This document shows, piece by piece, positions 14,309 to 34,832 of a DNA stretch of 34,832 nucleotides. The translations under genes were made by a program, and so were the position numbers. The notes beneath the pieces were generated by a model. The model saw only the letters and a list, made by a program, of their open reading frames with translations, was not told where the DNA came from and searched no databases. How positions within the stretch are numbered: position 1 is the first letter of the stretch; every line of letters begins with the position of its first letter. The stretch covers positions 1-34,832 of the forward strand of contig CAMYNX010000007.1 in NCBI GenBank assembly GCA_947259875.1, given 5' to 3'. This DNA is from an uncultured Gammaproteobacteria bacterium (GTDB taxonomy: Bacteria > Pseudomonadota > Gammaproteobacteria > Arenicellales > JAANXG01).

Positions 14309-14427
14309 GCACCAAGATTGGCCGGCGTTGCGCTGGTTGAATGGGCTTCCCAACAACAAACCGGCGCGGCCAGGAGGAAGATCCTGCCAGGGACGGCGGC
14401 GCTGGTCCCGTCAAAAAAGGGACGCGT

Positions 14428-16575
14428 ATGAAAAAAAATCTCGCGATTGCTTCCGGCGCACACACCCGTGTCGCTAACCCGGCCCGAACACCCACCAAGC
14501 GAAACGTCACGACCGGCTTGCACCAGTGTGCGCAGGCCATGCTGCTCAGCCTCGGGTTACTGGCCCCGGTGTTTGCGGTCCCGCCTATCGACGTGCGGCC
14601 GCAGGACGCCACCCAGGGCAGTCTGTGGCTGCGCGAGGACAGCGCAGCGCGCTATGCACCAGCACCGACCCTGGACACCGACGTCAGCATGGACATCACC
14701 GGTATGCTCGCTCGCGTGCACGTGCGCCAGCGTTTCACTAATCCAGGCCAGTCGTGGGCCGAAGGCATCTATGTGTTTCCGTTGCCGGAACTCTCGGCGG
14801 TCGATCACATGCGACTGCACATCGGCGAGCGCGTGATCGAGGGCCAGATCAAGGAGCGCGCCGCGGCCAAGCGCACTTATGAACGCGCCAAGCAGGCCGG
14901 CAAGAAGACTTCACTGGTTGAACAAGAACGCCCCAACATCTTCACCACATCGCTGGCCAACATCGCGCCCGGCGAGTCGATCACCGTGGAAATCGAATAT
15001 CAGCAGACAGTCCGTTACCTCGACGGCGCATTCCGGTTGCGATTCCCGATGGTGGTCGGGCCGCGCTACATACCGGGCATGCCGGTGGGCGCGGCAGAAC
15101 AGGTGCCCGCGTTCGCCGGCACCGGCTGGGCGCAGGCCACCACCGAGGTGCCGGACGCGGCGCGCATCACGCCGCCGGTCCAGCATCCCAAACACGGGCC
15201 GATCAATCCGCTGTCGCTGGACATCCGGCTCAACGCCGGCGTACCGCTGGGTGAGGTGAGCAGCCCGTATCACGCCATCACCCACACCAACGAAGCCACG
15301 GGTATCCATCGTGTGCGGCTGGCCCAGGACACGGTACCCGCCGACCGTGACTTCGAACTGGTGTGGCGCCCGCAGACCGGCTCGGCACCGAACGCCGCGT
15401 GGTTCGTGAAACGAGTAGACAATCATCAGTACGGCCTGCTGATGGTGGTGCCGCCGCAGCAGCAGAGCGAGGCGGCCCGCGTCGCCCGCGAGGTGGTGCT
15501 GGTGATCGACAACTCGGGATCCATGCACGGCGACTCCATCGCCCAGGCGCGCGATGCGTTATTGCTGGCGCTGGAACGGCTCACCGATGCCGACCGCTTC
15601 AACGTGATTCGCTTCAACCACACCACCAACAGCCTGTTCACGCACCCGCGTCCGGCCAACGCCCACAACCTGGCCCTGGCCAAACACTTCGTCAACAATC
15701 TGCGCGCCAGGGGCGGCACCGTAATGCTGCCAGCGTTGCAACTGGCGTTGACCGGCCAAACCGAACAGCGCACCACCAGCCAGGTCATCTTTCTCACCGA
15801 CGGCAGCGTCGGCAATGAAAAACAACTGTTCCGGGTGATCCGTAAACAACTGGGCAACCGCCGCCTGTTCACCATCGGCATCGGCTCGGCGCCCAACAGC
15901 TACTTCATGCGCAAGGCAGCCGAATATGGGCGCGGCACGTTCACCTACATCGGCAAGACCAGCGAAGTGATGGAAAAGATGGCCGGGCTGTTCCGTAAAC
16001 TGGAACAGCTCGCGCTCACCGATCTGCGCATCGAACTGCCGCCCGACATGCAACTCGAGATGCTGCCCAGGCAGATCCCCGACCTGTACCTGGGCGAACC
16101 GCTGCTGCTCGCGTTTCACAGCCAGCAGTTGCCGCCGTGGATCACGCTGCACGGACGCTTCGGCAACCAGCCGTGGCAGACCCAGGTGATGCTCGAGGGC
16201 GGTGGCCGGGACGCGGCACTGGCGCCTGAGTGGGGACGCCGCAAGATCGCGCAGCTGATGACCAAGCTGCACGCCGCGCAGACGGTCACTGCGCGCCAGG
16301 CGCTGCGCAGCGAGGTCATCAACACCGCGCTGTCCCACCACCTGGTCAGCCAATACACCAGCCTGGTCGCGGTCGACGTGACCCGGGTTCGCGAGCGCAA
16401 TGCGTTACTCACCCGGCACGCACTGCAGACCAACCTGCCCAAGGGCTGGTCATACGAGCACGTGTTCGGCGTCCCGCAGACTGCGACCCCGGCCCAGCTG
16501 CAGCTCCTCCTCGGCATGGCCCTGTTGCTGCTGGCGGCGGGCACGCACTATCGGTGGCGCCGAACACGATGCTGA
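14428..16575 (+). CDS. sortase target protein with VIT and vWA domains
   Basis: 715 residues from ATG 14428 (AAGGGA about six bases upstream); the ORF-track start 29 codons earlier lacks a site. A long signal peptide has its hydrophobic core at about 38-52. The VIT domain (about 80-200) is the inter-alpha-trypsin inhibitor type, with 'VFPLPELSAVDHM'. The vWA domain (about 355-540) has MIDAS 'DNSGSMHG' from Asp361 and 'FLTDGSVGNE'. The C-terminal sorting signal is 'VPQTATPAQ' (from residue 682), then a hydrophobic helix, then RWRRTRC. This is the architecture of the proteobacterial sortase target, where the motif is usually LPQTA; here Leu is replaced by Val. The protein is expected in the envelope or at the surface after sortase processing. 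It overlaps the sortase gene by seven bases. Confidence 0.93.
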   Translation: MKKNLAIASGAHTRVANPARTPTKRNVTTGLHQCAQAMLLSLGLLAPVFAVPPIDVRPQDATQGSLWLREDSAARYAPAPTLDTDVSMDITGMLARVHVRQRFTNPGQSWAEGIYVFPLPELSAVDHMRLHIGERVIEGQIKERAAAKRTYERAKQAGKKTSLVEQERPNIFTTSLANIAPGESITVEIEYQQTVRYLDGAFRLRFPMVVGPRYIPGMPVGAAEQVPAFAGTGWAQATTEVPDAARITPPVQHPKHGPINPLSLDIRLNAGVPLGEVSSPYHAITHTNEATGIHRVRLAQDTVPADRDFELVWRPQTGSAPNAAWFVKRVDNHQYGLLMVVPPQQQSEAARVAREVVLVIDNSGSMHGDSIAQARDALLLALERLTDADRFNVIRFNHTTNSLFTHPRPANAHNLALAKHFVNNLRARGGTVMLPALQLALTGQTEQRTTSQVIFLTDGSVGNEKQLFRVIRKQLGNRRLFTIGIGSAPNSYFMRKAAEYGRGTFTYIGKTSEVMEKMAGLFRKLEQLALTDLRIELPPDMQLEMLPRQIPDLYLGEPLLLAFHSQQLPPWITLHGRFGNQPWQTQVMLEGGGRDAALAPEWGRRKIAQLMTKLHAAQTVTARQALRSEVINTALSHHLVSQYTSLVAVDVTRVRERNALLTRHALQTNLPKGWSYEHVFGVPQTATPAQLQLLLGMALLLLAAGTHYRWRRTRC

Positions 16576-17180
16576 AACCGAGATCGAAAACGATGCTGGC
16601 CGCGGCGCTGGCCGGCGTCGGTGTCTGGCAACTGGGCGCCGGGGCCTGGATCCACGTCAAGGCGCAGCTCGCGCAGCTGCTTGTGGCGCGGGCGTGGGCG
16701 CAGACCGTGGCCGGCGACACGAACGTCCGGCCGTGGCCATGGGCCGACACCTGGCCGGTGGCGCGCCTGCGCATTTTGTCACGGGGGCTGGATGTCATCG
16801 TGTTGCACGGGCACAGCGGACGCAGCCTCGCGTTTGCACCCGGCCTGGCGCCCGGCAGTTTGCCGCCTGGCCAACCCGGCACCACCGTGATCAGCGCTCA
16901 TCGCGACACGCATTTTTCTGCGCTCGCCGGGCTTAAGGTGGGCGCGGTGATCGAGCTGCAGACCGCCACTGGACACTGGCGCTACCGCACTGTTTCGACA
17001 AAGGTGATAGACACGCGCTCGGATCGGATCGTCAACGATCCGCTGAATGATGAACTGGTGCTGGTGACCTGCTACCCGTTTGACGCGCTGCTACCGGGCG
17101 GCCCGCTGCGCTACGTCATTTATGCAACTGTTGATATGGAGACCGATATGAAATCTGCCCCCCGTGTCGATGCTGAATAA
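16569..17180 (+). CDS. class GN sortase
   Basis: 203 residues. The start at ATG 16569 overlaps the end of the target gene; the 113-residue ORF-track extension is the target read in another frame. One N-terminal TM (about 9-28) is followed by the sortase barrel, with catalytic His111 ('ISAHRDTHF'), Cys168 ('LVLVTCYPF') and Arg181 ('GGPLRYVIYA'). 'GRSLAFAPG' corresponds to the GRxLAFGPG motif of this Gram-negative class. Such sortases are usually dedicated to the single adjacent VIT/vWA target. The usual third partner, an OmpA-like PdsO, is not present in this locus. The gene ends seven bases before the convergent cassette gene. Confidence 0.95.
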   Translation: MLKPRSKTMLAAALAGVGVWQLGAGAWIHVKAQLAQLLVARAWAQTVAGDTNVRPWPWADTWPVARLRILSRGLDVIVLHGHSGRSLAFAPGLAPGSLPPGQPGTTVISAHRDTHFSALAGLKVGAVIELQTATGHWRYRTVSTKVIDTRSDRIVNDPLNDELVLVTCYPFDALLPGGPLRYVIYATVDMETDMKSAPRVDAE

Positions 17181-17187
17181 TGACTTA

Positions 17188-17193
17188 TTATGC
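17188..17193 (-). other. R'' remnant of the Imm50 cassette's own attC
   Basis: On the minus strand the gene ends GCATAA and is followed at once by TAAGTC from the sortase side. GCATAA(C) is the exact complement of the (G)TTATGC that precedes the gene. The match stops at the position where IntI cuts (RYYYAA|C). The rest of this cassette's attC is missing. Confidence 0.5.
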
Positions 17194-17619
17194 GGCGCCT
17201 TCATGATCTGCGATCCGTTCGACTGAGGCCCTGAAACACTTGAAAGAAAGCTCAAACTCCCAAGCGGGTAAGAAATGTACAATCATATAAGGAGTCATCG
17301 GCGTTCCATCTTTCAATTGCCCGCGTTCCTCAACACCAAATACCAAATCCATGATGGGGTTTTGGTTATTAAATCCTGCCATCTTGATGTTTGCACAATC
17401 TTCAAACCTGAAGAGCACAGCGAACGGATTCCTAACAGCACATAATTTCAGCTGGACCGTGATTTGAGGCCCGATGTAAATACCATCTTCAGGTCGTACG
17501 TCACCGCGCCAAATCTTAAAATCTTTTATTTCTGCATCGTGAAAATTTGGCCAAGCGCCTTGTTCATCCAAAATTAGTTCGCTTCCCGTGATTAGCAATT
17601 TTGGATCGGTTTCATTCAT
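17188..17619 (-). CDS. Imm50-like immunity-type protein (integron cassette gene)
   Basis: 143 residues, cytosolic, with no TM. The N-terminal 'WPNFHDAEIKDFKIWRGD' and a later 'VRNPFAVLFRFEDCANIKMAGF' segment fit the Imm50-type fold, in which a WPSFHDAEI-like motif is usual. Homology is judged by eye only. The ATG at 17619 lies three bases after attC site 17623..17697, and no Shine-Dalgarno is visible, as is common for promoterless cassette genes. The stop codon lies in GCATAA, the complement of TTATGC at the gene's 5' side, which is the expected R''/R' pairing of one cassette. The base composition is AT-richer than the flanking Pds locus. Imm50 proteins protect against polymorphic toxins, but orphan copies occur, and no toxin is seen here. 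Confidence 0.7.
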   Translation of the reverse strand: MNETDPKLLITGSELILDEQGAWPNFHDAEIKDFKIWRGDVRPEDGIYIGPQITVQLKLCAVRNPFAVLFRFEDCANIKMAGFNNQNPIMDLVFGVEERGQLKDGTPMTPYMIVHFLPAWEFELSFKCFRASVERIADHEGAA

Positions 17620-17622
17620 AAC

Positions 17623-17697
17623 GCATAACGTTCGCCGTGAGGCGCCAGAAAAGACGCGCCAGCGGCCTGCTGGTCGTACCCCAAGGTGTTGTTAGAC
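17623..17697 (-). other. integron attC recombination site
   Basis: A 75-base site read on the minus strand: R'' GTCTAAC (17697..17691) and R' GTTATGC (17629..17623). The two halves pair imperfectly as CC.TG.GG near the ends and as CGaCCAG against CTGGCG, with one extrahelical A, the asymmetry expected of attC folding. A gene ends just upstream and another starts three bases downstream. Recognised by eye; covariance-model scoring was not possible. Confidence 0.8.
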
Positions 17698-17704
17698 ACC
17701 ATAC

Positions 17705-17878
17705 TCAACCTACATTGTAAATAGTATAAAGCACGATCGCGGCAATACTGAGCAATACAATAGATTGAAACAACCCGAACCATTTTCTGACTTTGGTCTT
17801 TGATAGATAACCCCCAACAGTAAATAACAGAACATCGCAGAAGGGTCTGACCCCGTTTTTACAATACACAACGGCCAT
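17705..17878 (-). pseudogene. C-terminal remnant of a small membrane protein from the preceding cassette
   Basis: A frame of 57 codons, too short for the ORF track, ending TGA at 17705, seven bases before the attC R'' site. Its last 45 residues look natural: 'VLLFTVGGYLSKTKVRKW' followed by a hydrophobic helix 'FQSIVLLSIAAIVLYTIY'. The first 13 codons are formed by a GGGGTCAGACCC palindrome and do not look like family sequence. I infer the true N-terminus was lost there. An intact 57-residue protein starting at ATG 17878 is possible but has no ribosome binding site. Confidence 0.55.
17843..17853. repeat. GGGTCTGACCC palindrome (REP-like)
   Basis: A perfect 5+1+5 palindrome followed by C and a T5 tract. 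It marks the upstream breakpoint of the cassette membrane-protein remnant. Similar short palindromes are common relics of REP/RAYT systems; that identity is inferred. Confidence 0.45.
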
Positions 17879-18038
17879 TTAAAGGAACAGTTGCCAATAA
17901 CAGTTTAAAGAGTCCCGGTCCGAATCGTAAACGGCACCACAATTGTGATCGTTGATTCGTCTCGCAAAAAATACAAACCGGATTTTTAAACTACGCTCTG
18001 CGAACCGGAAGGAACATCAACCGCGCATATCAGAGTTG

Positions 18039-19178
18039 TCAGGTCAACGCGTTGCTTTGCCGTTGCGGGGATGAGTCGAATCGGTCGATTCGAAATGGAC
18101 CAATAGGATACTCGGTTACACCGGTCGTCACCAAGTCGGCAATAATACTCCCGACTATCGGACCCAATTGAAATCCATGAGCAGAAAATCCAAACGCGTG
18201 GAAAGCACCTTCCTGTTGACTTGGTCCGATAACCGGTATTCCATCCGGCATGTACCCCTCAATTCCCCCCCAGCAACGAACGATCCTTGCACCGCGCATG
18301 GTTGGTAAGATTTGTGCCGCCGTCCGCGCATTTCCCGCAAGCCCCCCAAGTTCGAGGCTTGCGGTGTTGGTGTTTCTAACTGCGTTCCCCCTAACGCCAC
18401 CACCAATCAATACTGTTCCGTTCGCGAACTGCTTGAGGGACAGCGTGCGTCCCTGCGCACCGACCACCGGTTTCACAAAAAACGGCATGCGAGCGGTGAT
18501 CATCAGCATTGGGGCATAGGCCCGCAACGGAACCGGCTCTCCAAGCATTGCCGCGATGTGGTCACCCCACGCCCCGGCGCAATTGATCAGTACCGGCGTC
18601 TGCAGCGGATCGGCCGATGTTTCTATCCGCCAAGTTCCTTGACGCCTGTCAATCCCGAGAACACACACCTGTTCCAGGATGCGAACGCCGAGCAATTCAG
18701 CCTTGCGTTTGAAGGCCATGGTGGTGCGGTACGGGTTGGCGTGGCCATCGTCTGACACCACCATCCCGCCCACGCAGTGCGGCGACACAGCCGGCAGCAG
18801 TTCGCGCAGCTCCTCTGGTCCAATGACGACTTCGTGGTCGAATCCCGCGTCGCGAACGAGACGCACCCGTTCCTCGAGCGCCCTGGCCTCATCTTCATTT
18901 TCAGCGACCCGCACCTGAGCGCTCGGTACGAACTCGCAGTCATCGTCTACCAGTTCTCCGATATTATGCCAAAGCCCCATGGCCGCTACCGACAACGGGA
19001 TCTCCGGTAAAGCACGTCCCAATCTGCGAACGCCACCGGCATTGACTCCCGATGCATGACGAGCCACGTAGTCTTTTTCTACGACGACAACACTGATGCC
19101 GCGACGGGCTAAATGGACGGCACACGAACAACCATGTATGCCGCCACCGATGACCACGGCATCAGCAGTACGGACCAT
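18039..19178 (-). CDS. FAD-dependent oxidoreductase, DAO/SoxB/HcnC-type subunit
   Basis: 379 residues of the D-amino-acid-oxidase superfamily. The N-terminal Rossmann motif is 'AVVIGGGIHGCSCAVHLARRG' (dinucleotide-binding GxGxxG), then 'VVVVEKDYVARHASGVNAGGV' around the FAD. The C-terminal FAD motif region is 'GGIEGYMPDGIPVIGPS', with 'FHAFGFSAHGFQLGPIVG'. Such enzymes oxidise amines or secondary amino acids such as sarcosine, glycine, proline derivatives and opines, passing electrons to oxygen or a quinone. It is the last gene of the operon, 29 bases after the HcnB/OoxA-like gene, and AGGAG lies before the ATG. It resembles the beta subunit of multi-subunit opine or hydroxyproline dehydrogenases. 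A second DAO protein in the same operon (20915..22018) is clearly distinct. Confidence 0.88.
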   Translation of the reverse strand: MVRTADAVVIGGGIHGCSCAVHLARRGISVVVVEKDYVARHASGVNAGGVRRLGRALPEIPLSVAAMGLWHNIGELVDDDCEFVPSAQVRVAENEDEARALEERVRLVRDAGFDHEVVIGPEELRELLPAVSPHCVGGMVVSDDGHANPYRTTMAFKRKAELLGVRILEQVCVLGIDRRQGTWRIETSADPLQTPVLINCAGAWGDHIAAMLGEPVPLRAYAPMLMITARMPFFVKPVVGAQGRTLSLKQFANGTVLIGGGVRGNAVRNTNTASLELGGLAGNARTAAQILPTMRGARIVRCWGGIEGYMPDGIPVIGPSQQEGAFHAFGFSAHGFQLGPIVGSIIADLVTTGVTEYPIGPFRIDRFDSSPQRQSNALT

Positions 19179-33967: not shown

Positions 33968-34171
33968 CTTGCCCACCGATTGAATTACTTGCCCCAATAG
34001 TCGCATCACAGACCGATATGGTTATTGGCAACACATCGATAGTCAACCGGCAATTACAACGGCCCCTTATAGACCGCCAGGGTTTGTTGTGGGTCGTTTT
34101 TCCTCCGTGATGATGAATCGACTCTAGTCGGCCCACAGGAGTCAATCGAGATTTAAGAAAGCAGACGTATG

Positions 34172-34256
34172 TATTAACTCTCCACGTCATCGGCAGCAGA
34201 AAGCAGGGCGACGAGGAACGCCGCTTCGTGCTGTCCACAGGATACGTTTGTTAGGC
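34172..34256 (-). other. second integron attC site
   Basis: Read on the minus strand, R'' GCCTAAC (34256..34250) contains the stop codon of the upstream gene and the site ends near GTTAATA (34178..34172). The two halves fold together: ACGTATC with GAT(g)ACGT, GGaCAGCA with TGCTGCC (extrahelical A), GAAGC with GCTTTC, and GGCG with CGCC around an apical loop. This paired-with-bulges form is the hallmark of attC. The R' heptamer departs from GTTRRRY, so that boundary is less sure. Confidence 0.7.
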
Positions 34257-34832
34257 TATGATGCCTTTTGAATCTAAAAACCCATCAGGAACATCTGAAT
34301 TCTTCCAGCCTGCAATGGCAAAGTAGTACAGTGGTTCTCCCTCAATTGATAACCTATGTCGATAGCGTTCAATGTAATAGACATCAAGATATTTCGAGAA
34401 TATTAGTTCCCGAATCATTTTAGAGAACCCTGATTCATCACTTATATCAAAGAAGGTGTCCTTGATATTAAACGCCACCCACGCCTCGCTTTTGATTATA
34501 TTGAACGCCTCTATAAATGCCTTTGCCGGGATGTCACCGAAACCAAGTGCGGCAACCGTTACCATGCAATCACATTGCCATGAGATTATTTCTTCTTTTT
34601 TGTCATCGTTTAGCTTCGTGAAATCCTCAACGTAATATGCATCATATAGTCCAGGCCTGTCTCGGATTGTTGCATCATAAGCTTCGGGAATTATGTCTAC
34701 CCCTATTAAGCGCGAAACGCCGTGTTTTTTTAACTCCTCCCCCATCATGCCATTGCCTGCACCTAAATCTAATATTCTTAGCTCACTAAAATTATCTTGA
34801 TACTGTTTTACCGCTGATTCGAGTATTGAGGC
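34251..34832 (-). CDS. SAM-dependent methyltransferase, partial (cassette gene)
   Basis: The gene runs off the right edge; 193 codons are visible, and the ORF-track start at 34748 is an internal Met. The frame continues upstream as 'LRILDLGAGNGMMGEELKKH', which contains SAM motif I, then 'RLIGVDIIPEA'. 'MVTVAALGFGDIPAKAFIEA' and 'EAWVAFNIKDTF' fit motifs IV to VI of Methyltransf-type proteins. The stop TAA lies inside the attC R'' box, the same layout as the Imm50 cassette. Base composition is clearly AT-richer than the central operons, consistent with a transferred cassette. The 5' end, start codon and substrate are unknown. Confidence 0.8.
   Translation of the reverse strand, partial: ASILESAVKQYQDNFSELRILDLGAGNGMMGEELKKHGVSRLIGVDIIPEAYDATIRDRPGLYDAYYVEDFTKLNDDKKEEIISWQCDCMVTVAALGFGDIPAKAFIEAFNIIKSEAWVAFNIKDTFFDISDESGFSKMIRELIFSKYLDVYYIERYRHRLSIEGEPLYYFAIAGWKNSDVPDGFLDSKGIIA

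Follow-up and report, generated by a model that had tools for sequence, protein, structure and literature searches.

The DNA at about 17155-17855 is probably a small, decaying block of two cassettes from the integron of the lineage, lodged between a sortase gene and an oxidoreductase gene. The window that was analysed is all of one contig (C7, 34,832 nucleotides) from a gammaproteobacterial genome that is divided into 390 contigs. An independent attC model and a comparison with four homologous cassettes support the proposal in the initial annotation that a cassette relic lies at the 3' end of the sortase locus. The features of the locus are the following.

14341-16575 (+): sortase target protein gene, host locus (TIGR03788, 783.2 bits, cut-off 551.65)
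16569-17180 (+): class GN sortase gene, host locus, convergent with the Imm50 gene (TIGR03784, 199.8 bits, cut-off 158.25)
17155-17187 (no strand): 33 nt between the clear sortase homology and the cassette, with the sortase C-terminal tail codons and stop inside
17188-17619 (-): Imm50-family gene, body of the second cassette; its 5' end is the TTATGC of R' and its 3' end overlaps R'' (GCATAA)
17623-17697 (-): attC of the first cassette, 75 nt (R'' GTCTAAC, R' GTTATGC), in which the arms keep their sequence but the hairpin has decayed
17705-17836 (-): 3' stub of a putative membrane-type protein gene, body of the first cassette; 43 codons (17708-17836) and a stop (17705-17707), open frame DVLLFTVGGYLSKTKVRKWFGLFQSIVLLSIAAIVLYTIYNVG
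17843-17854 (no strand): GGGTCTGACCCC, a palindrome-like element that lies just past the stub and recurs dispersed over the genome, with 12 exact copies against none of the reversed control pattern
18039-19178 (-): FAD-dependent oxidoreductase gene, host locus, other flank of the insertion (PF01266, 230.9 bits)

The sortase gene and the gene of its dedicated target protein adjoin and both score above their TIGR cut-offs, which makes this a class GN sortase system. A response regulator that adjoins the system matches TIGR03787 under its cut-off. The GC content of the 17-18 kb bin is 46%, versus 68% in the kilobase before it. As first described, the truncated membrane-type reading frame, the attC, and the Imm50 gene all have one orientation. 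Read on the minus strand toward the sortase gene, the order is the GGGTCTGACCCC repeat, the stub, seven bases, the attC, three bases, and the Imm50 gene, so the start of Imm50 three nucleotides past R' is confirmed. The stub, the attC, and the Imm50 cassette, which begins at G|TTATGC, thus stand in the order and orientation of an integron array.

The attC site and the first cassette

The R'' box of the site at 17623-17697 matches RYYYAAC, and R' departs from GTTRRRY at one position (T for R). The same type of departure is found in array sites, for example L108:1378-1444. The layout is close to that of intact sites, with GTCTAACAACACCTTGGGGTACGACC...CGCCTCACGGCGAACGTTATGC in the window versus GCCTAACAAACGCTTGCAGTCCGACG...CGGCTGAAGCGAAACGTTATGC on contig C286. 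A generic descriptor of R and L boxes and stem gave the site no better than fourth place in the window; this descriptor is not specific, and scoring was therefore passed to a trained profile and a covariance model. The covariance model, for which 23 array sites were used and the window site was left out, placed the attC at the top of the window with 27.1 bits and an E value of 7.1e-5 (0.009 at the scale of the whole genome), and the second best match had 12.2 bits. In this own-trained model, scoring of the site as had been suggested puts it far above background. The arm profile was trained on 28 array attC, again with the window site left out, and gave the site 35.0 versus 20.8 for the next independent site in the window; its training sites came from the integron arrays of the genome and its relatives and were picked by eye among descriptor hits, and are therefore a curated and not an independent set. 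None of 60 simulated sequences of 34.8 kb reached 35.0 (maximum 23.7). Real array sites score 22.9-49.5 when their own homologues are excluded, apart from a single value of 2.9, from what is perhaps a poor site. An Rfam scan of the region gave nothing relevant.

The canonical fold of the site, however, has been lost. Neither strand folds better than shuffled sequences (z -0.75, with an MFE of -12.4, and z -0.52), and there is almost no pairing of the R and L boxes. R pairing is 0.05 and the L measure is 0.10, versus about 1.3-1.7 for the L measure in most array sites. Constraining the R boxes to pair gave no canonical fold. Because the fold is no better than that of shuffles and the arms are unpaired, the site is a decayed attC that has kept its arms and lost its hairpin, and it is predicted not to work. 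The site had been described as a foldable attC; the attC is real, but it is not foldable.

It is hardly conceivable that the attC is a chance look-alike and the Imm50 gene an ordinary neighbour of the sortase. The rank given by the generic descriptor and the lack of a fold would suit such a reading, but two array-trained scorers place the site far above background, its R' falls exactly on the cassette boundary that is set independently by homologous copies (G017, C206, and G006), and relatives have no Imm50 gene beside the sortase. The look-alike was rejected on the agreement of the two scorers and on the position of R'.

The stub is judged to be membrane-type from a hydrophobic stretch only, and a search of 60 relatives gave no credible homologue of its peptide. 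Since the stub is without a known homologue, its putative cassette status is taken from its position before the attC. The cassette was cut near the GGGTCTGACCCC repeat, which left the 43 codons. No other copies of the DNA of this attC and stub were found in the genome or in 30 relatives. In G003, a related palindrome-like element, GGGGTCTGTCCCC, lies directly after the sortase stop (L032, contig C132).

The Imm50 gene and its cassette

The second cassette carries a gene that matches the Imm50 family (PF15594) with 32.5 bits, over the cut-off of 27.1. Four homologues that are 80-87% identical in amino acids are found on contig C206 of the same genome and in G006, G012, and G017. The 5' boundary reads GTTATGC-GTT-ATG in the window, GTTATCC-ACC-ATG in C206 and G012, GTTGTGC-ACT-ATG in G006, and GTTATGC-GGTA-ATG in G017. 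The distance from the box to the ATG is thus 3-4 nt in all five copies, as at the start of a cassette. At the 3' end the relatives read GCATAAC, or GCATAGC in the case of G017, and then continue into attC-like DNA that has TTGAACCGG...GGTTAA among its L boxes. By the covariance model, Imm50's own attC in G006, G012, and C206 scores 14.6-16.5 bits, which are weak scores. The initial annotation had pointed out that the window gene ends in GCATAA, the complement of TTATGC. These are real cassette boxes; because the homologues share these cassette ends, the complementarity is that of the cassette's own R''/R' pair.

Upstream of the Imm50 boundary the window, G017, and the group of C206, G006, and G012 are not mutually alignable, with a weak z of 2.1 for the pair of window and G017. 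The 5' boundary of the gene in G017 coincides exactly with the end of another, different attC-like site, which scores 17.2 bits. Judged by these conserved ends in three different upstream contexts, Imm50 is a genuine cassette gene. It is under purifying selection, with a dN/dS of 0.08-0.16 in pairs with the window copy. The coding sequence probably still encodes an immunity-like protein. Imm50 is a predicted immunity protein of polymorphic toxin systems, and the window gene is like the family in that it passes the Pfam cut-off. It differs in that it travels as a cassette gene, and in the loci that were read no partner toxin was noticed beside it; here the immunity role is the family annotation only.

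A small membrane-protein gene, the same in C206, G006, and G012, comes after Imm50, so that a two-cassette unit is kept across genera. The DNA of C206 (L012, 6048-7950) and that of G012 contig C518 (L042, 1-1903), with the Imm50 cassette and its neighbour included, are 99.4% identical over 1.9 kb. Such identity between different genera points to a recent transfer or to a mis-binned contig.

The sortase locus and its junction with the cassettes

Comparison of the sortase 3' flank among relatives had been proposed as a check. In three relatives with sortases that are 78-85% identical (G003, G004, and G007) there is no Imm50 gene beside the sortase, and the two of the same genus, G003 and G004, have no cassette at the sortase 3' end. 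A conserved partnership of Imm50 and sortase was rejected for this reason. The flank is different DNA in each relative examined. In G007 one different gene sits between the sortase and the oxidoreductase, and about 1.2 kb past the sortase there is a match to the window that begins at 18011 and takes in part of the oxidoreductase gene. That G007 keeps the order from sortase to oxidoreductase with a different gene between indicates that both flanks in the window belong to one locus, of which the interval varies.

The shared order of the flanks also bears on whether an array fragment was wrongly joined to the sortase contig during assembly. The genome is in 390 contigs, and contigs of the genus frequently break off at or close to an attC array, a sign that repeats do interfere with assembly. 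However, the flanks keep the G007 order and thus form one locus, the window attC lies outside the near-identical 102-bp attC repeats of the genome, and the 251-bp region that holds it occurs only once in the genome. A chimera is very improbable.

Clear host homology stops at about 17133-17154. The initial annotation had sortase-locus DNA begin precisely at the IntI cleavage position, which is not confirmed since the next 33 nt are ambiguous. In unanchored tests 17155-17187 had no significant match to the sortase tails of relatives (p 0.17-0.64) or to the G006 attC (p 0.21). When the comparison is anchored at GCATAA, the next 20 nt resemble the attC of G006 (p 0.009) and not those of G017, C206, or G012. 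Two alignment forms and several homologues were compared and only the anchored G006 comparison reached p of about 0.01; the similarity to the G006 attC past the supposed junction is suggestive only. From these alignments the junction of host and cassette is placeable only within about 33 nt and not to the base.

No recognisable attC of its own follows the GCATAA of the window Imm50 gene. It had been proposed that this attC was lost at or by a recombination event. The lack of a recognisable attC is confirmed, but its loss in an IntI event is unsupported. IntI crosses over between the first two bases of R' (G|TT) on the bottom strand (PMC12901181). Because the crossover is at R' but the loss is at R'', and because the junction is uncertain by 33 nt, the aligned DNA does not support an exact coincidence of the sortase junction with an IntI cut. 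GCATAA would be kept by selection anyway, because the stop codon forms part of R''.

It is improbable that IntI itself made the sortase junction by cutting the Imm50 cassette at R'' (GCATAA|C). This would require top-strand cleavage, for example if the folded top strand recombined, or mirror-image cleavage, and loss of the attC would be the direct product of an irreversible fusion. The last certain cassette base is exactly the last A of RYYYAA, and the relatives go on with C and attC at that point, which fits a cut there. However, the accepted crossover lies in R' on the bottom strand (PMC12901181), selection for the stop codon within GCATAA is enough to keep the box, the host side is uncertain by 33 nt, and some similarity to the G006 attC continues past the supposed junction. 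Moreover, a one-gene circle inserted by its top strand would put Imm50's own attC upstream. A single insertion of this kind was rejected because the sequence of the upstream attC differs from that of Imm50's own. If it were true, IntI action at R'' would fix an immunity-like gene in the chromosome.

The integron of the genome and the origin of the block

A search of the genome for an integrase and for other attC, another of the proposed checks, found both. A full-length integron integrase (480.7 bits) lies on contig C164, with at least four attC between it and the contig end, and the covariance model gives 26 attC matches in the genome, with arrays on other contigs. The earlier statement that there is no integrase nearby is correct for contig C7, where neither an integrase nor an integrase remnant was found, but the genome does encode IntI. 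Absence of the integrase from a contig is not absence of the integron from the genome. IntI matches were found in all six members of the genus that were examined, own genome included, though that of G004 is incomplete and interrupted by a stop. The genome has 10 matches to a 102-bp attC family, none of them on C7, and the 75-nt attC of the window is not a member.

Many attC arrays stop at contig ends, namely those on C164, C65, C85, C111, C286, and C288 of this genome (G000) and arrays in G001 and G005. Its repeated attC have probably caused the integron to be broken up among many contigs. Contig C28 carries on the minus strand a strong attC of 45 bits and, about 500 nt off, a weak second one of 12.3 bits (L112, 2911-3012 and 3507-3578); it is without an integrase match and may hold another stranded cassette.

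A second attC-like relic is present on C7 at 34171-34256 (-), with 12.2 bits and an E value of 0.45 in the window. It starts at the stop of a methyltransferase-like gene (ORF 34251-34832, -), the TAA of which lies inside GCCTAAC. Five relatives, namely G006 and four of the genus, carry this gene with 92-96% identity, and three of the five have an attC of 14.6-22.6 bits at the same locus. From this conservation the gene and the relic look like an old cassette fixed in the genus.

Loose attC clusters without an integrase are commonly read as degraded integrons (PMC9024848). An array or integron could likewise have stood at the sortase locus and shrunk, so that the block would be a remnant in place and not an insertion; the second relic on C7, in the same orientation, would agree with this. 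Such an origin is unlikely. Contig C7 is without an integrase or a remnant of one, G003 and G004 are without a cassette at the sortase 3' end, G007 has only one other gene between the sortase and the oxidoreductase, and the two attC of C7 are 16 kb apart with ordinary genes between.

The preferred explanation is that the block left the integron of the lineage and settled between the sortase and oxidoreductase genes. The source was most likely the genome's own integron. This source is assumed, because contigs break at arrays and no copy of Imm50 or of the stub was found in the C164 array. For the entry, IntI may have joined an attC to a non-integron target, as in an insertion of the attG type, or a piece of array may have been carried by another kind of recombination. 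The left end of the block is truncated near the repeat and the right end is ambiguous over 33 nt, with no intact junction of cassette and host at an attG target. Neither side retains an intact insertion junction by which the two modes of entry could be told apart. Decay would have followed, in which the first cassette lost its 5' part near the repeat element, the attC hairpin became unpaired, and the attC of Imm50 was removed or eroded beyond its R'' box. The Imm50 coding sequence would have stayed under purifying selection across its copies.

The block can be compared with known arrangements. A CALIN is an attC cluster that lacks a nearby integrase, and by default IntegronFinder requires at least two attC (PMC9024848). 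The block is similar in that its attC and cassette genes are on a contig that lacks an integrase, and the same genome has an integron elsewhere. It falls outside this class, however, as it has one scoring attC, below the default of two, and the other relic is 16 kb off; its hairpin is also decayed and no attC is recognisable for its last cassette. Insertion of cassettes into the chromosome through attG sites is reported by Loot et al. (2024, Nat Microbiol 9:228). The block resembles such insertions in that its cassettes occupy an ordinary chromosomal locus and the genome encodes IntI. It differs in having no intact insertion junction, and the use of attG would be conjectural here. The genus has IntI and the 102-bp attC family, like a sedentary chromosomal integron with repeated attC, and the window attC has the same arm layout, but the block is not part of the arrays, nor does its 75-nt attC belong to the 102-bp family.

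Cassettes away from their integron are a known phenomenon, and the present case is sound but ordinary. It is a clear case of integron cassettes in an ordinary chromosomal locus that have lost their mobility while one gene is still selected. With three distinct upstream contexts across genera, the Imm50 cassette is a good case for studying how cassette genes become permanent.
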